Shown here piece after piece: positions 1-7,571 of a DNA stretch of 7,571 bases (position 1 is its first letter; every line of letters begins with the position of its first letter). The notes under the pieces are model-generated. The model did no database searches. It saw nothing but the letters and a program-made list of their open reading frames with translations, and was not told the DNA's origin. The DNA is from Muribaculaceae bacterium (GTDB lineage Bacteria > Pseudomonadota > Alphaproteobacteria > Rs-D84): the NCBI GenBank assembly GCA_023665245.1, contig JAMPEH010000104.1, positions 1 through 7,571 on the forward strand, in the 5' to 3' direction. A program made the position numbers and the translations under genes.

Positions 1-3000
1 GCCGCCAGGCTGCCGCCGCCGGCGCCCTTGGCGCAGCGGTACAGCAGCACCGCCAGCTGCTCCCGGGTGATGATCTCGTCCACGCCGAAGGCGGAGCCGC
101 CGAACAGGTCGGCGACGCCCTGCTGCTCGGCCCAGAGGATGGCGTCGGAGTACCACAGGCCGGTGCCCGCGTCAGTGTAGCGGGAAGCGCCGCTCACCGC
201 GGGGGAGCCGGAGGCCCGGTACAGGGTGGTCACTGCCATGGCCCGGGTGACCGCCTGGTCGGGAGCGAAGAGGGTGTCGGCGGTGCCCTTCATGACGCCC
301 CGGACCGCGCTGTACACGATGCCGTCGGACGCCCAGTGGTTGGAGGCCGCATCGGCGAACTTGGGGATGGAGCCGTTGACGGTGATCACCGCCATCTTCT
401 CCTCCGCGTACCAGGTCACAGAAGCCCCGGCGGCGTCCTTCACCTGGTCGGCGGTGACGTAGCCGGTCAGGTCGGTGCCCAGGTAGAGGTTGATGACCTC
501 GGCGGGGAACATGGGCTGGCCGTTCTCCACCCGCAGGGCGGCGGAGATGGTGCGCTCCACGTAGTTGACCAGCGCGGTGTCCTCACCCTCGGTGAGCACC
601 AGCTTGGTGCCGGAGGGGGTCCCCTTCAGGTAGTTGTCCCAGTAGGCCCGGAACGCGGCCTGGATGGCGGCGGGATTGCCGTAGCGGGTGTAGTCGTTCC
701 AGCTGGTCACGCTGCTGCCGAAGTAGAAGGCCTTCGCGCCGGCGTCCTGCATGGCCGTCTCGGTGCGCACGGACTGCTGGTTGGTGATGTTCTGGCTGCC
801 GCCGAAGCCGCCGAACACCACGATCACGGGATCGTCGGCGGAGGCGTAGTAGGCGGGGCTGGCCTTCTGGGCCCGCTCCACGGCGGCCATCAGCTCGCTG
901 TGCTCATAGGTGTAGGTGCCCAGGGTCACGGTGGCGCCGGAGCCGATGAAGGCGTTGGTGGCGCCCTCCTGGCCGGGGAACCAGTGGTCCACATAGGCCT
1001 TGTCGATGGTCAGGGTGTAGGGCTGGGCCAGGAACTGGGTCAGGGTGCCGGCGGCCTCGGCGGCCCTGCGGGCCTCCAGGTAGTTGCGCAGCACCAGGTA
1101 GCCCTTGCCCGGGCCGGAGAAGTTCACCGCCTGGGCGCAGGGGGCGTTCTCACCGTCGCCGCCGCTGATCATGGAGCGCATCAGCTCGAAGTTGTAGTCG
1201 TTGTCGTCCCGCTGGTCCTGGCCGAAGTAGATGGCGTCGGACCAGGCGTAGCCGCAGATGCCGGCCTGGACCCGGCTGGAGACGTCCAGGTTGCCGCCCA
1301 CGGCGCCCTCCATCTCCTCATCGCCGCCGCTGAGCAGCATCATCAGGGAGGTGTTGCCGCCCAGGGACACGCCGTAGATGCCGATCCGGTCGGGGTCGAT
1401 GCCCAGCCAGCCGGCGTTGGCCCGCAGGTAGCGGATATTGCCCTTGATGTCCTGGTAGTACAGCGGGGACTCGTTGGGCGGATAGTTGCGCAGGTCCACC
1501 CCCGCCAGGGCGTAGCCGGCGTCCAGCAGGCTCAGCAGGTTGGTGTCCAGGTCGATGCAGGTGCCGCCGAAGCCGTGGATGTACAGGATGACGGGCACGG
1601 GGGCGTCGCCCTGCTTCCAGCCGGTGGGCATGAACAGGTTCACGTCCAGGGTCTTGGACACGGGCAGGTAGAGCAGCATGTTGGCGTTGGTGTTGCCGGT
1701 CTGGTTGACCACGGTGTCCACGTTCAGGTTGAACCTGGTGGGGAAGGGCTGGACGTGGGCCTGGCCGCCCTGGTAGTTCTGGGCGATGCCGTTCTTGACC
1801 ACCCGGCTGCCCTCGGGCAGGAAGGTGAAGCCCGCGGCGAACACGGCCGCGCCCGCGGCGTTCACGGTGTAGGCGTTCTCGCCGTTGGCGGTGGACAGCT
1901 TGGTCCACTTGCCATTGGCGTACAGGAACCAGTTGTCGTCGAACAGGTACATGGTGCCCGGGCCGGCATAGCTGCCGTCGGCGAAGGTAACGGTGCCGTT
2001 GAAGGTGTTGCTCACGTTCTCCACGATGGGGATGTTGACGAGGGAGGCCCGGTCGCCGCCCTGGTACAGCTTGATGGTGGGCAGCTCGTCCTCGTCCATC
2101 ATGACGTAAGCGCCGTCCTCACCCACCGCATAGCTGCCGTCGGCGTTGGTCTTGTAATACATCTGGTGCTGGTACACCCCGGTGTTGGCGCAGGTGACGG
2201 TGAGGCGCAGGCTGCTGCCCGACGCCACCCGGTAGGCGATGGCTTCCAGGTTGAACTGGAGCAGGACGGGGGTATCCAGGCCCTGGGCCAGAGCGGCCTC
2301 CACGTCGGAGGTGAGGCTGGTGTGGTACCGGCCGGCCAGACCCTGGGTGGAATCCCACAGGTCGTTGGCGCCGGTGGCGCGGTGGGAGGCCCGGGCCACG
2401 CCCTGGGTGATCATGTGGGAGGTGCCGTCGGCCTTGACCTCCTCCAGGTAGCACACGAAGTCCGCGTCGTCGGTGTCGGCGCTGGAGATCCACAGGTCCA
2501 CGCTGGGGATGCCCACGATCTCAGCGGCGCTGGACAGGGGGGCGGAGGTGTAGGTCAGGCCCTTGGAGTCCACGGGGGTCATCTCGCCGGTGGCGGACAG
2601 GTCCAGGTTGCTGAAGCCCTCGGGCTGGACGCTCAGGTCCACCTTGTAGTCCACGGAGGAGGAGCCCGGCTTCACCAGGGACAGCTTGCCGTTGTTGCTC
2701 TGGGGGCCGTCCAGCTTCAGCGCGTCGCCCAGCACCTCGCCGCTGGTCTCGGGAGCCAGGTAGAGCACGCTGTTCACGCTGTTGTCCAGGGGGAAGGTGT
2801 CGGAGTAGCGCCACTCCTCGCCCTTGGCGGCGTTGACCACGTAGTAGTAGAACTTGGGCGCGTCCTCATAGCCGTTGTCCACGCCCTTGAGGACGTAGTC
2901 GTACCAGCGCAGCTGCTCCACGTCCACGTTCAGCTTGTCGCCCTCGGTGGCGTTGGCCGCGCCGTCGTTCTTGCTGTAGCCGCCCCGGATGGCCCCGCCG

Positions 3001-6000
3001 TGGCCCCAGGGGCCGATGACGATCTGGCCGCCCCAGGCGTTGGCGGAGGCGATCTGGAAGGTGGCGTTGGCGTCATACCAGCCGGCGATCTGGTGGACCT
3101 GGATGCCGCTGGCCTTGATCTCATCGCTGTACTCCACGGCGGGGATGGTGAGGTTCACCTGCTCGCCGTACAGGTAGTCGTTGGGCTGGTCACGGTTCAG
3201 GTTGGGAGCCAGCAGGTACTGGGTGAAGGGCATATTGTGCTCGGTGTAGTAGACGTAGGCCTGATAGGCGGTGCGGCCCTCGGGGTCGTCGTCCACGAAG
3301 GTGACGCCGGGCTTCTGGATCCACTCGTCATAGGGCTTGGCCTGGGCGTCCAGGTTGGTGCCGGACAGGGGACGGCCGCTGGGCACGCAGGAGGCTCCGT
3401 TGCGGTAGTCCTGGTAGTAGAAGTCGGGGTTGTTCACGATGGGGGAGATGGCCTTGAGCCCCTCGGGGGCGGTGGTGGCGGTGGCCCACTGGATCAGGCC
3501 CCGGTTGGAGCCGCCCTCCATGGCGCAGGTGCCGTTGCTCCACGCCTGCGCGGGCAGCCAGTTCTCCATGACGTACTTCACGTCCAGCCGGTTCTCCAGG
3601 GAGGCGAAGCTGTTGTTCACGCCGAAGGACGCGCCGCAGCCCCGCATCTCCAGCATGACCCAGGCGTAGCCGTGCTTCACCAGGTACTCCGCGTCGAACT
3701 GGGAGGCGCTGATGCCCCGGCCGCCCCGGGAGATCTCGAACACGGCGGGGAAGCGGCCCGCCGCCGGGGTGGTGCCGTCCTCAGAGGGGAGCACGTAGGT
3801 CAGCGCCAGCTGGATGGTGTGGTTGGCCGCGTTGTAGCTGGGGTCCTCCTGGAACTCGGGGGCGGAGGGGAACTCCACCTGGCCGGGATACTGGGCGGGG
3901 ACCTCCACGTAGAGGGATTTCTCCACCACGTTGGCGTAGGTCTGGCCGGTGTAGCCCTCATACTGGCCGGGCAGGGAGACCTTGGTGGGCTCCGCCTTGG
4001 CGGAGGCCCCGGCAGAGGCGCCGGCGGGGGCGCTCTTGGTCAGGGTGACGGTGGTATAGCCCGCCTTCACGGTGTCGTCCTCATAGGTCTCGCCGGTGTA
4101 GGTCTTGATGGTCACGCCGGGCAGGGCGGCCTTCAGCTCCTCGCTGTCCAGGGCGTAGCTGGCGCCGGCGGACAGATTGGTCCCGAAATACCGGTTGACG
4201 AAAGCGCCGCTGAGCTTCAGCTCGCCGCCCTCCCGGACCAGGGCGCCGTCGAAGGGCACGTCCAGGTCGTTGACCACCGCGTAGCTGTAGGGAGTGGAGG
4301 CGTCCACGATGGTGGCGGAGGCCCGCACACCGGCGGGGCGGTTCTTCAGGGTGCTGTCCAGGTAGGCCAGCATGGAGGTCTTGACCTCCGTCTCGCCGCC
4401 GTAATTGCCCATGGAGTTGCCGGCCATGACGGCGGGCACGCCCATCTCGGCCAGCTGCTTCAGGGTGCGGGTGGACTGGGTGTTGGTGATGTTCTGGCTG
4501 GCACCGTAGCCGCCGAACACCATGATGGAGGGATCGTCGGGGGAGACATAGTATAGGGGGCTGGCCGCCTCGGCATAGGTCAGCTTTTCCTCCATGTAGG
4601 TGCGGTCCCAGTGATAGGAGCCCTTGGTGCAGGTGGCGCTGCCGGCGGTGAAGGCGTTCTCGCCCAGCATGGAGAACCACTTCTCGATGTACGCGTCGTC
4701 GATGGTCACGTCCCACTTGCCCTGGTTCTCCCGGAGCCAGCCGGACAGGGTGTGGCCGCTCTCGGCCAGGTAGGCGTCCCTGGCCTCCTTGTAGGTGCGC
4801 AGCACCAGGTAGCCCTTGCCGGGGCCGTAGAAGTCGATGGCCTGGGCGCAGGGGGCGTTCTCGCCGTCGCCGCCGCTGATCATGGAGCCCAGCAGCTTCA
4901 GGTTGTTGGCGTTGTCGGTGCGCTGGTCCGCGCCGAAGTTGATGGCGTCAGACCAGGCGTAGCCGCACACGGCGGCCTGCACCCGGCTGGACACGTCCAG
5001 GTTGCCGCCCACGTCGCCCTCGAGATAGGGATTGCCGGCGCTGACGGCCATCATCAGGGAGGTGTTGCCGCCCAGGGACACGCCGTAGATGCCGATGCGC
5101 TCAGGGTCCAGGCCGTAGCGCTCCGCGTTGGCCCGCAGGTGGCGGATATTGCCCTTCACGTCCCAGTAGTAGTCGGGGGAGAAGTTGGAGGGGTAGTTGC
5201 GCAGGTCCACGCCCACCACGGCGTAGCCCTGCTCCAGGATCTCATAGGCGAAGTCCTGCTTGAGCTGGCTGTAGGAGCCGCCGAAGCCGTGGATGTAGAG
5301 CACGGAGGGCAGACTGCCCGCATCACTGGCGGATACGCCGCCGGTGGGCATAAAGATGTCCTGGTACAGGTTCTTCTGCACGGGGAGGTAGAGCAGGTCG
5401 GCCACCGGCTCGATGGGCACGGTGTCCACATAGACGTGCCGGTAGGTGGGGATGGGCTGGGTGTAGGCCCCGCTGCCGCTGATCTTCTGCACCGCGCCGT
5501 CCTTGAAGGCGGTATTGCCCCGCTGCTGGAAGGAGAAGGCGCCGAAGTCGGCCGCGCCGTCGCTGCCCACGGTGTAGGGGGTGTCGGCGGGGATGCTGAG
5601 CCACTTCTCAGCCTCGCCGTCCTGGTAGTTGAGGTAGATGTTCCTGTCCAGCCAATACAGCACGGCGGGGACGTTCTTCGCGCCGCCCACAGAGGCCACG
5701 CCGCTGTAGCCGGTCTCGTACGCGTCCGCGAAGGGCAGGGTCACCTTGGAGCCGCCGTCCTGGTGGATGGTGATGGCCTTGTCGGCGGTGACGGTGACCT
5801 GGAGGGCCACGGAAGCGCCCCGGGGCACGGAGAACAGATAGGCCACGAAATCATTGCTGTCCTGGGCGGCGTACGCCTTTGCCAGCTCGATTTTGCCGGT
5901 GCCGGCGGCGGTCATCGCGGCGCTGGCGGTGAACTCGCCCTGGGCCACGGGAGCGGCGCCCTCGGCGGTCACGCAGGACAGAGTCACGGTGATCTTCGTG

Positions 6001-6431
6001 CCCGCGGGGGCGGTCACCTTCAGCTCCGCGGTGGGATAGCCCATCAGCGTGGAGCTGCCGTTGAGCTTGGCGGACTGGTAGGTGAAGCTGGTCCCCTGCT
6101 TGGACGCGCCGGAGGCGCCCAGCTGGGACAGGATGCCCGCTCCGCTGGGGGCGAAGTCGGCCAGCACCACTTTTTCAGCGTCCGCATCGTCCAGCGTCAG
6201 CTCGTTGGTGAAGATGTGGCCGGTCCCGTCGGTGCGGTCGGCCAGCGGGTCCTGCTTGCTGGGAACGGTGTCGGCGTAATGCCAGCCGTCGTTTTCCACA
6301 TAGTAGCGGTCCGGCTGCTTGGAGCCCGCGCCGGGCGCGCTGGCGGCCAGCGCCGCCGGGCACAGCTGCAGGATCATTACCGCGGCCAGGGCCAGAGAGA
6401 GCAGTCTGCCTTTTCGTCCAGATGCCATCAT
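1..6431 (-). CDS. Giant SLH-anchored exported hydrolase: two alpha/beta hydrolase copies flanking an S15/CocE domain (3' end outside window)
   Basis: One frame without stops runs 2,143 codons from ATG 6431 to the window edge, where it is still open; with a usual third SLH repeat the full protein would be roughly 2,200 residues. Order: Sec signal peptide 1-29; end-of-S15 remnant and orphan jelly roll 42-233; alpha/beta hydrolase 332-697 (HGFGG at 381, GVSLGG Ser452); beta stalk 711-800; Ala/Gly/Ser linker about 800-817; S15/CocE catalytic region 870-1192 (Ser975, Asp1120, His1144); CocE-type jelly roll 1289-1469; second alpha/beta hydrolase 1566-1938 (HGFGG at 1619, GVSLGG Ser1689); second stalk to about 2020; SLH repeats from 2022. 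It should be exported and bound to cell-wall polymer. The S15 part predicts an acyl ester or X-Pro peptide hydrolase; the flanking domains resemble BD-FAE/acetylesterase-type enzymes but lack a recognisable Asp and His. Transcribed behind a permease gene. Reading frame and domain classes are solid; substrates unknown. Confidence 0.93.
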   Translation of the reverse strand, partial: MMASGRKGRLLSLALAAVMILQLCPAALAASAPGAGSKQPDRYYVENDGWHYADTVPSKQDPLADRTDGTGHIFTNELTLDDADAEKVVLADFAPSGAGILSQLGASGASKQGTSFTYQSAKLNGSSTLMGYPTAELKVTAPAGTKITVTLSCVTAEGAAPVAQGEFTASAAMTAAGTGKIELAKAYAAQDSNDFVAYLFSVPRGASVALQVTVTADKAITIHQDGGSKVTLPFADAYETGYSGVASVGGAKNVPAVLYWLDRNIYLNYQDGEAEKWLSIPADTPYTVGSDGAADFGAFSFQQRGNTAFKDGAVQKISGSGAYTQPIPTYRHVYVDTVPIEPVADLLYLPVQKNLYQDIFMPTGGVSASDAGSLPSVLYIHGFGGSYSQLKQDFAYEILEQGYAVVGVDLRNYPSNFSPDYYWDVKGNIRHLRANAERYGLDPERIGIYGVSLGGNTSLMMAVSAGNPYLEGDVGGNLDVSSRVQAAVCGYAWSDAINFGADQRTDNANNLKLLGSMISGGDGENAPCAQAIDFYGPGKGYLVLRTYKEARDAYLAESGHTLSGWLRENQGKWDVTIDDAYIEKWFSMLGENAFTAGSATCTKGSYHWDRTYMEEKLTYAEAASPLYYVSPDDPSIMVFGGYGASQNITNTQSTRTLKQLAEMGVPAVMAGNSMGNYGGETEVKTSMLAYLDSTLKNRPAGVRASATIVDASTPYSYAVVNDLDVPFDGALVREGGELKLSGAFVNRYFGTNLSAGASYALDSEELKAALPGVTIKTYTGETYEDDTVKAGYTTVTLTKSAPAGASAGASAKAEPTKVSLPGQYEGYTGQTYANVVEKSLYVEVPAQYPGQVEFPSAPEFQEDPSYNAANHTIQLALTYVLPSEDGTTPAAGRFPAVFEISRGGRGISASQFDAEYLVKHGYAWVMLEMRGCGASFGVNNSFASLENRLDVKYVMENWLPAQAWSNGTCAMEGGSNRGLIQWATATTAPEGLKAISPIVNNPDFYYQDYRNGASCVPSGRPLSGTNLDAQAKPYDEWIQKPGVTFVDDDPEGRTAYQAYVYYTEHNMPFTQYLLAPNLNRDQPNDYLYGEQVNLTIPAVEYSDEIKASGIQVHQIAGWYDANATFQIASANAWGGQIVIGPWGHGGAIRGGYSKNDGAANATEGDKLNVDVEQLRWYDYVLKGVDNGYEDAPKFYYYVVNAAKGEEWRYSDTFPLDNSVNSVLYLAPETSGEVLGDALKLDGPQSNNGKLSLVKPGSSSVDYKVDLSVQPEGFSNLDLSATGEMTPVDSKGLTYTSAPLSSAAEIVGIPSVDLWISSADTDDADFVCYLEEVKADGTSHMITQGVARASHRATGANDLWDSTQGLAGRYHTSLTSDVEAALAQGLDTPVLLQFNLEAIAYRVASGSSLRLTVTCANTGVYQHQMYYKTNADGSYAVGEDGAYVMMDEDELPTIKLYQGGDRASLVNIPIVENVSNTFNGTVTFADGSYAGPGTMYLFDDNWFLYANGKWTKLSTANGENAYTVNAAGAAVFAAGFTFLPEGSRVVKNGIAQNYQGGQAHVQPFPTRFNLNVDTVVNQTGNTNANMLLYLPVSKTLDVNLFMPTGWKQGDAPVPVILYIHGFGGTCIDLDTNLLSLLDAGYALAGVDLRNYPPNESPLYYQDIKGNIRYLRANAGWLGIDPDRIGIYGVSLGGNTSLMMLLSGGDEEMEGAVGGNLDVSSRVQAGICGYAWSDAIYFGQDQRDDNDYNFELMRSMISGGDGENAPCAQAVNFSGPGKGYLVLRNYLEARRAAEAAGTLTQFLAQPYTLTIDKAYVDHWFPGQEGATNAFIGSGATVTLGTYTYEHSELMAAVERAQKASPAYYASADDPVIVVFGGFGGSQNITNQQSVRTETAMQDAGAKAFYFGSSVTSWNDYTRYGNPAAIQAAFRAYWDNYLKGTPSGTKLVLTEGEDTALVNYVERTISAALRVENGQPMFPAEVINLYLGTDLTGYVTADQVKDAAGASVTWYAEEKMAVITVNGSIPKFADAASNHWASDGIVYSAVRGVMKGTADTLFAPDQAVTRAMAVTTLYRASGSPAVSGASRYTDAGTGLWYSDAILWAEQQGVADLFGGSAFGVDEIITREQLAVLLYRCAKGAGGGSLA
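3..368 (-). other. SLH repeats, two visible (residues 2022-2143)
   Basis: Repeat 1 begins PKFADAASNHWASDGIVYS and ends TRAMAVTTLYRASG; repeat 2 has YTDAGTGLWYSDAILWA and ends ITREQLAVLLYRCAKG. These are the F-D-W-A...TR-E-A-LYR landmarks of S-layer homology domains, which bind secondary cell-wall polymers in Gram-positive bacteria. SLH domains normally come in threes, so a third is expected just beyond the window edge at position 1. Confidence 0.93.
618..1736 (-). other. Alpha/beta hydrolase domain 2 (residues about 1566-1938)
   Basis: A paralogous copy of the domain at 332-697, with the same landmarks: YIHGFGG (His1619), VDLRNYP, KGNIRYLRANAGWLGIDPDR, IGIYGVSLGG (Ser1689), Cys1726 in CGYAWSDAI, GGDGENAPCAQA (Asp1759, Cys1765) and FGGFGGSQNITNQQS (Ser1879). 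Like copy 1 it lacks the usual Asp after the hG strand and a clear C-terminal His (FYFGSSVTSW at that place). It is followed by a stalk region and the SLH repeats, which puts it nearest the cell wall. Confidence 0.8.
1338..1385 (-). repeat. 48-base identical segment, copy 2 (nucleophile elbow)
   Basis: Partner of 5049-5096, encoding the same residues around Ser1689. A second near-identical stretch at the same offset covers the GGDGENAPCAQA motif (about 1132-1175 and 4843-4886, with one mismatch). Confidence 0.9.
2025..2567 (-). other. X-Pro dipeptidyl-peptidase C-terminal-type jelly roll 2 (residues about 1289-1469)
   Basis: This is the non-catalytic beta domain that normally follows S15/CocE catalytic cores. 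Visible are LTYTSAPLSSAAEIVG, VDLWISSADTDDADFVCYL with EEVKADG, ITQGVARASHR, a SGSSLRLTVT strand, and a closing strand ending NIPIV. Following directly after the Ser975 catalytic region, it should complete that fold. Confidence 0.8.
2856..3824 (-). other. Peptidase S15/CocE-type catalytic region (residues about 870-1192)
   Basis: The region follows the CocE/X-Pro dipeptidyl-peptidase plan: LEMRGCGASFG in place of the usual D-RG-G-S-G, WLPAQAWSNG before the nucleophile elbow GGSNRGLIQW (Ser975), LKAISPIV after it, the Asp motif IAGWYDAN (Asp1120) and the His motif IGPWGHGG (His1144). The Ser-Asp gap of 145 and Asp-His gap of 24 residues match the family, so the triad looks complete. Two departures: the elbow is G-G-S-N-R-G rather than G-x-S-Y-x-G, and the RTPY oxyanion tyrosine is replaced by SRGGRG. 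Esterase/acylase or X-Pro peptidase specificity cannot be told apart. Confidence 0.85.
4341..5438 (-). other. Alpha/beta hydrolase domain 1 (residues about 332-697)
   Basis: The pattern is that of secreted BD-FAE/acetylesterase-like hydrolases: YIHGFGG at 379-385 (oxyanion loop), a VDLRNYP strand, KGNIRHLRANAERYGLDPER before IGIYGVSLGG with nucleophile Ser452, then NTSLMM. A long insertion follows with conserved CGYAWSDAI (Cys489) and GGDGENAPCAQA (Asp522, Cys528). Where such enzymes read hG..D..VP..QS, this domain reads FGGYGASQNITNTQS (Ser645), without Asp, and no GxGH-type His is seen after it (AGNSMGNYGG instead). It may be an atypical enzyme or a non-catalytic descendant. Confidence 0.8.
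5049..5096 (-). repeat. 48-base identical segment, copy 1 (nucleophile elbow)
   Basis: These 48 bases, encoding IGIYGVSLGGNTSLMM around Ser452, are identical base for base to 1338-1385, at an offset of exactly 3,711 bases. It is the longest exact match I found between the two hydrolase copies. Confidence 0.9.
5733..6119 (-). other. Orphan jelly roll 1 at the N-terminus (residues about 105-233)
   Basis: It has the strand order of the CocE/X-Pro C-terminal beta domain: TSFTYQSAKLNGSSTLMGYP, then AELKVTAPAGTKITVTL, AQGEF, a YLFSVPRGASVALQVTVT strand, and a closing QDGGSKVTLPF. It is shorter and more diverged than the copy at 1289-1469. No S15 catalytic core precedes it; only RYYVENDGWHYADTVP (42-57), resembling the end of such a core (FYYYVVN...EEWRYSDTFP at 1194-1212), lies between it and the signal peptide. 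Confidence 0.6.
6345..6431 (-). other. Signal peptide of the giant hydrolase (residues 1-29)
   Basis: A basic n-region (GRKGR), a hydrophobic core (LLSLALAAVMILQL) and a C-terminal ALA|AS give a classical Sec/type I signal peptidase site, with cleavage predicted after Ala29. The cysteine at 24 does not make a lipobox: Leu precedes it at -1 where small residues are needed, so a lipoprotein is unlikely. Confidence 0.88.
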
Positions 6432-6572: not shown

Positions 6573-7571
6573 TTACGCGGGGAACAGGCCGAACAGGCCC
6601 ACGGTGGCCACGATGATGGTGATCACGGGCACCACCAGAGCCGCGATGATCATCTTGTTGGACAGCAGCTCCTTCTGGTCCTCGTAGGGGTTGGCGGCGA
6701 TGCACACCGCGCCGCCGGTGGAGAAGGGAGAGCAGGAGGTGGCCAGACCGCCGAAGAAGATGCAGGTGTACAGCATGATGGGGTTCAGGCTCAGGCTGGC
6801 GGCCAGGGCGGGCACCATGGGGTACATCAGGGGCATGACGGTGGAGGTGGAGCTGGAGAAGAAGCTGAGGAACGCGGCGAACAGCACGATGGCGGCGGGC
6901 ACCAGGAACCTGGGGATGCTGGAGGACAGCACGCCGGAGATGAACTCCACCAGGCCGGCCGCGGCGGCCACCTGGATCAGGGAGTACACGCCCACGATCA
7001 TCACGATGGTGCTGATGGGGATCTTGCGGATGACGGTCTTCTCGTCGCCCAGCTTGAGCACGGCGCACAGCAGCGCGCCCAGCATCATGATCACCTGGGG
7101 CTGGCAGATCTGGTTCAGGGTGGACAGGAAGGCCACGCCCTTGATCCAGGTGTTGAGGATGGGGGGCACCACCATCAGGAAGAAGGCGACCAGCAGGATG
7201 ACGACGGTCTTCTTCTGGATGGGATCAAACTCGGGGGGCTTCTGGTTCAGGGACACCTTGTCGGCCTTGTGGCCCTTCAGGGCGAAGTAGAACAGCACGA
7301 TGACGATGATGGTGATGATGCAGCAGTTGAACCAGATCTTCAGAGACCAGTCCATGGTGAGGGCCTCGTCCACGCCGTTGGCGATGATCAGGTTCTTGGA
7401 GATGCTGCCGCCGTACCCGTTATAGGGGTTGTTGGAGCCCACCAGGTTGCCGAAGGTGATGGCCACGGCGGTGAGCACCGGGTTGACGCCGGCGGTGGCG
7501 GCCATGACGAAGGCGAAGGGGCCCACGATGGCGGGGGTGGAGGCGCCGGCGCCCAGGCCGCCCACGATGGC
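6573..7571 (-). CDS. Ion-transporter superfamily permease, SLC13/MatC-like organic-anion carrier (C-terminal part)
   Basis: A cytoplasmic-membrane secondary transporter, probably for a di- or tricarboxylate or similar organic anion; substrate unknown. The frame enters from the window edge (codons GCC ATC precede the GTG at 7565, which is internal), so the N-terminus is missing; 332 residues remain before TAA at 6575-6573. About eight hydrophobic segments are visible, such as IIVIVLFYFAL, VVILLVAFFLMVVPP and MIIAALVVPVITIIVATVGLF. Two loop signatures typify ion-transporter superfamily carriers: an early STPAIVGP...FGNLVGSNNPYN stretch and a late FFSSSTSTVMPLMYPMVP stretch followed by GGLATSCSPFSTGG. 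Such Ser/Thr/Asn-rich re-entrant hairpins form the substrate and cation site in the superfamily. The GLGAG-S-TPAI-GP wording resembles dicarboxylate carrier MatC, but DcuC- or NhaC-type relatives cannot be excluded. It lies 141 bases upstream of the giant hydrolase on the same strand, so co-transcription is possible. Transporter assignment is firm; family moderately so. Confidence 0.75.
   Translation of the reverse strand, partial: AIVGGLGAGASTPAIVGPFAFVMAATAGVNPVLTAVAITFGNLVGSNNPYNGYGGSISKNLIIANGVDEALTMDWSLKIWFNCCIITIIVIVLFYFALKGHKADKVSLNQKPPEFDPIQKKTVVILLVAFFLMVVPPILNTWIKGVAFLSTLNQICQPQVIMMLGALLCAVLKLGDEKTVIRKIPISTIVMIVGVYSLIQVAAAAGLVEFISGVLSSSIPRFLVPAAIVLFAAFLSFFSSSTSTVMPLMYPMVPALAASLSLNPIMLYTCIFFGGLATSCSPFSTGGAVCIAANPYEDQKELLSNKMIIAALVVPVITIIVATVGLFGLFPA

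Follow-up and report, generated by a model that had tools for sequence, protein, structure and literature searches.

A surface-anchored CocE-type hydrolase with one putative catalytic center and two esterase-fold modules that may bind ligand

Results

The window (the whole 7,571-nucleotide stretch analyzed here) probably encodes an exported, surface-anchored serine hydrolase of the CocE/NonD line, likely that of a gut bacterium, in which one catalytic center, an S15 core, is combined with two pseudo-esterase modules that may bind a ligand. Its minus-strand frame opens at an ATG at position 6431, preceded by a GAGAGGA box, and runs for 2143 codons to the window edge with 0 stops, as expected from the continuous frame described in an earlier, sequence-only reading; that reading's single exported protein also agrees with the likely export signal (Table 1). 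GC3 of the frame is 95%, and a long plus-strand frame at 3–4556 lies opposite the hydrolase ORF.

Table 1. Features of the window (aa, amino acids; residues are those of the hydrolase)
Feature	Positions	Strand	Basis or remark
Whole ORF, 2143 aa	3..6431	-	Open at window edge
Likely export signal, residues 1–31: hydrophobic core, then ALAAS	6339..6431	-	Sequence; hydropathy 2.47
First jelly roll and small beta domain X, residues 36–328	5448..6326	-	hhalign; structure-model matches
A1 domain, residues 330–712, BD-FAE fold	4296..5444	-	Ser452 retained, Tyr677 at His position, acid absent
Stalk 1, residues 700–800, paralogue of stalk 2	4032..4334	-	hhalign P 98.8
S15 catalytic core, residues 815–1180	2892..3989	-	Ser975-Asp1120-His1144; SRGGR replaces oxyanion Tyr motif
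Second jelly roll, PepX_C, residues 1181–1470	2022..2891	-	PepX_C profile
Small beta domain X, residues 1471–1564	1740..2021	-	hhalign against first copy
A2 domain, residues 1565–1938	618..1739	-	Ser1689, Asp1739, Arg1889, Tyr1917
Stalk 2, residues 1935–2010, Cu_amine_oxidN1-like	402..629	-	Domain search
SLH repeats, residues 2024–2143, two visible, cut by window edge	3..362	-	Domain search
SLC13/CitMHS-type permease, 5′ end cut	6573..7571	-	Upstream, same strand, 141 bases from hydrolase

The protein is built around two tandem copies of a [jelly roll–X–A–stalk] unit. The domains of the A–S15–A–SLH mosaic proposed earlier are all present, but hhalign reveals a duplicated unit with one S15 core rather than a mosaic. 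Residues 36–328 align with 1190–1565 (E 1.9e-40); the first copy begins at the S15/jelly-roll boundary, no S15 core lies ahead of the first jelly roll, and the core occurs only before copy 2. Both predicted CocE-type jelly rolls are recovered, the second at 100.6 bits against a PepX_C cut-off of 22.5 and the first, which is sub-threshold for Pfam PepX_C, through its alignment to the second. The low-confidence model of the first has X-PDAP, AEH, or CocE in 21 of its 24 top VIA rows and was counted solely alongside that profile alignment. Stalk 1 (4032–4331) has no Pfam match.

Profiles and predicted folds bear out alpha/beta-hydrolase folds for A1, S15, and A2, and they do not bear out the "multi-hydrolase" of the sequence-only reading. 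A1 and A2 reach the Pfam score for BD-FAE esterases (PF20434) and have the predicted fold, and their nearest solved folds are, judged by titles, esterases or lipases, including the BD-FAE-type structures 6tkx, 6nkf, and 6mly. Each keeps the serine of GxSxGG as well as the oxyanion HG strand. Of the BD-FAE Ser-Asp-His triad, however, only Ser is present, so A1 and A2 are not classed as active esterases and the S15 core alone has a complete triad.

Loss of the catalytic histidine is uniform across fused A domains. Among 65 such domains, excised by profile rather than by motif, the nucleophile column is Ser in 65/65 and the catalytic His column is His in 0/65 and Tyr in 65/65, as it is in the fragment P0056. 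Asp and His are both kept in 11/11 non-fused relatives (where Ser is present by construction, since these were excised on GxSxGG), and His also in one further non-fused locus, L011. An acid is found in 0/28 A domains of double-unit proteins; not all of the family has lost it, because single-unit proteins, which have D in 6/37 and E in 1/37 at the acid column, carry a nearby Asp ("VDI") in 33/37, and four of five partial A-containing loci (L012–L016) keep D or E in an HGxFD/YE motif. These four lack the His and are possible intermediates in triad loss.

The former active site and the lid motifs are nonetheless strictly conserved over the 65 domains. Asp1739, Arg1889, and Tyr1917 are each present in 65/65, whereas the Asp1739 and Arg1889 columns are unconserved in the non-fused enzymes (commonest states a gap, 5/11, and Leu, 4/11). 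Among columns conserved in at least 63/65 fused domains, the sole His is H1619 of the oxyanion strand, which is common to the non-fused enzymes. A 100/100 branch splits the 65 fused A domains from 11 others. In the structure model, pLDDT falls below 50 in the loop that directly precedes Tyr1917 (model residues 343–350).

The S15 core belongs with CocE/NonD hydrolases but departs from them at the oxyanion hole. It scores 215.4 bits for TIGR00976 (curated cut-off 66.3) and falls short of the Xaa-Pro dipeptidyl-peptidase model PRK05371 (53.3 versus 642 bits). The S15/CocE region and its triad (S975, D1120, H1144) were read correctly from the sequence alone: Ser-Asp-His occupies these columns in 14/14 double-unit proteins. 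Single-unit proteins have Ser in 37/37, Glu for Asp in 34/37, and His in 36/37, and other CocE-type proteins Ser in 16/18, Asp in 18/18, and His in 17/18. The CocE oxyanion Tyr is Tyr44 (structure 1l7r is titled as a Tyr44Phe mutant); its column is Tyr in 0/14 double-unit proteins, 0/37 single-unit proteins, and 0/9 A-less S15 relatives (0/60), versus 15/18 other CocE-type proteins. Some Tyr is found no more than four columns from this position in 2/14, 8/37, and 0/9 (10/60) versus 18/18, and the residue after the S15 Ser is Asn in 60/60 of the clade versus Tyr in 16/18. Arg902 and the Asn that follows Ser975 are candidate substitutes for the missing oxyanion Tyr. PMC1647292 calls this Tyr "strictly conserved" within the Y-class superfamilies of the Lipase Engineering Database, mainly dipeptidyl peptidases, prolyl endopeptidases, and cocaine esterases. 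With Tyr in 0/60 of its clade, the window's enzyme is not classed as Y-class, and even the activity of the S15 core is not assured.

The sequence-only reading did not recognize the domain order from any named protein, yet at least 13 other double-unit proteins share the architecture, one in permuted form. A first protein search, which scored the 7985 candidates with most words in common, found at least nine proteins that combine S15 and jelly roll with two A domains (P0002, P0004–P0011; P0003 is part of the hydrolase in the window itself). A third (E 1e-60, 7988 candidates scored) added at least two double-unit and at least 36 single-unit proteins. Because these searches scored limited candidate sets, the counts are lower bounds. 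Searching genome contigs with an alignment gave relatives L001, L002, and L003 (the weak row L004 is excluded from every count); the same search with a single protein as query gave no match. On plasmids, no place covered 80% of the query, and the matches listed were CocE-type hydrolases, a single esterase, and places without annotation. We mapped 78 proteins: 14 double-unit (including the near-identical L002 and P0068), 37 single-unit S15–jelly roll–X–A (L003 9833–13351; P0070–P0102, P0104, P0106, P0107), nine close A-less S15 relatives (P0103, P0105, P0108–P0114), and 18 other CocE-type. At E 1e-40 the A-domain profile matched 2/296 genomes in the family of G001 and 1/391 in its class, and 4/299 in each of the families of G002 and G003, three matching genomes being common to the latter two samples; every count includes the center genome.

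Several relatives depart from the common plan. P0011 (2962 aa) is permuted, with an N-terminal S15–jelly roll–X followed by two [jelly roll–X–A] units and PF04122, and its two A domains form a clade of their own. The homologue at L001 9995–19360 exceeds 3122 aa and runs off its contig, with additional stretches that resemble, by eye, another hydrolase and stalk-type repeats. P0108 (814 aa), an A-less relative, carries PF01476 (LysM) in precomputed Pfam data.

Surface tethering, as first proposed, is supported by SLH repeats scoring 55.2 bits against a cut-off of 20.8 in two stretches; SLH-anchored proteins typically bind pyruvylated wall polymer. The double-unit architecture recurs elsewhere, and SLH tethering is found in some members only: the domain is listed in 3/11 other double-unit proteins with precomputed Pfam domains (L001 and L002 are outside the 11), and double-unit proteins with SLH are P0001, P0004, P0010, and P0069. 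Other anchors include PF04122 (P0011), a C-terminal hydrophobic segment (P0006, P0007), and, by eye, a possible lipobox (P0005); in the remaining double-unit proteins no anchor was seen, L001 leaving its contig. A hydrophobic N terminus (15-residue mean hydropathy within the first 40 residues) occurs in 13/14 double-unit versus 2/37 single-unit proteins at a threshold of 1.4, and in 8/14 versus 2/37 at 2.0.

Gene neighborhoods share no common partner across the loci examined, so we propose no substrate from them. Between 6380 and 6650 we found no terminator- or promoter-like site, where shuffles expect merely 0.2 and 0.0. L002 has tripartite tricarboxylate transporter-like neighbors by eye, one of them without an NCBIfam match. 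At L019 8222–16467 a single-unit gene lies beside opp-type oligopeptide ABC genes, with an RpoN gene on the other side (Pfam matches for SBP_bac_5, an oligo_HPY ABC protein, and RpoN; others by eye). L017 has RpoN and a sigma-54 activator that comes closest to PrdR/PrpR without reaching their cut-offs, and BaiCD/old-yellow-enzyme-like flavoenzymes, below the equivalog cut-off, lie near single-unit genes at L003 782–2791 and L018 12451–14535. A MoaF-like identity for L018 10434–11426 was ruled out; the gene has a weak GDSL-like match, below cut-off. That a released acid is imported via the adjoining SLC13-type permease is a guess.

Discussion

How should two conserved esterase folds with a broken triad be read? 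The sequence-only reading took all three domains to be active serine hydrolases of differing specificities, in keeping with the retained GxSxGG serine and oxyanion strand and with nearest folds that are esterases or lipases by title; replacement of His by Tyr throughout and loss of the acid in 28/28 double-unit A domains, set against intact non-fused relatives, make this very unlikely. A purely structural role for the A domains, as spacers, is quite improbable: they do recur as a module followed by stalk domains, and S15 relatives without them exist, but such strict conservation of the former active site and lid motifs exceeds what a spacer needs.

The serine kept in every A domain could reflect a different catalysis, with Ser1689, Tyr1917, and Asp1739/Arg1889 forming a retooled site, for example of a transferase or slow esterase. 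The invariance of these four residues, two of them at columns unconserved in non-fused enzymes, fits this idea. Against it, single-unit and double-unit members are not alike at the acid position, and open-licence literature gave no match for pseudoenzyme, hydrolase fold, and catalytic histidine together; we consider it rather unlikely. Chimeric assembly is conceivable insofar as the window is a fragment, but at least 13 further proteins of various origins, L001 and L002 among them, have the double-unit architecture, and its probability is close to nil.

We therefore return to a single catalytic center with two binding modules. Ser975-Asp1120-His1144 would be the sole center, acting on an acyl ester or amide. 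Loss of His and acid from a strictly conserved pocket suggests that the A domains bind rather than cut: they would no longer hydrolyze esters by a Ser-His-Asp mechanism, and the former active site (Ser1689, Asp1739, Arg1889, Tyr1917) may hold substrate, product, or a wall or plant polymer. By presenting this ligand to the S15 core or keeping it nearby, the putatively noncatalytic A domains may cooperate with the core. If so, annotation would tally three esterases where probably one works. The family would then be a clear example, defined by sequence, of an esterase-fold pseudo-enzyme among bacteria of gut and rumen, for which the non-fused relatives with their triad serve as an outgroup; it is joined to a CocE-type core lacking a residue that its class is said to conserve strictly.

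The protein resembles the CocE/NonD family (TIGR00976; cocaine esterase) in having an S15 core that carries the Ser-Asp-His triad and a C-terminal jelly roll, but differs in having SRGGR for the oxyanion Tyr and Asn for Tyr after the Ser, and in adding X, A, and stalk domains and a second unit without a core. Open-licence literature yielded nothing linking CocE/NonD with S-layer homology or SLH domains, two matches for CocE/NonD and gut that appear unrelated, and, for Hominifimenecus and hydrolase, a strain-collection paper. Single-unit proteins, such as P0091 (CocE/NonD family hydrolase [Hominifimenecus sp. rT4P-3]), have this same unit and the His-to-Tyr change in its A domain (37/37), but are about 1080–1150 aa long, mostly have Glu for the S15 Asp (34/37), and lack a hydrophobic N terminus in 35/37. 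Unlike BD-FAE esterases, whose triad is given as Ser128-Asp237-His269 in PMC8165983, the A domains have Tyr for His, have lost the acid, and occur in fusion with an S15 module.

In function, the nearest precedent is the gibberellin receptor GID1, compared here by its published description (PMC3531792). There, GID1 is suggested to derive from HSL-type lipases and to have lost their active-site His, and gibberellin contacts the retained Ser and Asp. The A domains likewise combine an esterase/lipase fold and a retained Ser with a missing catalytic His (65/65), and may bind ligand without hydrolysis in a GID1-like manner. GID1 is a plant hormone receptor that keeps its Asp, whereas the acid is found in 0/28 double-unit A domains; such working is thus possible, but the A domains are not classed as GID1-type receptors. 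Tentatively, and with somewhat less than even confidence, we suggest that a bacterial family independently took a GID1-type step (His lost, Ser kept) that made an esterase domain receptor-like, with a new invariant pocket set of Ser1689, Asp1739, Arg1889, and Tyr1917. This domain would have been placed after a CocE-type hydrolase that has itself given up the oxyanion Tyr of the Y-class, and duplication of the module in a surface branch would have provided two pseudo-esterase pockets for one catalytic core.
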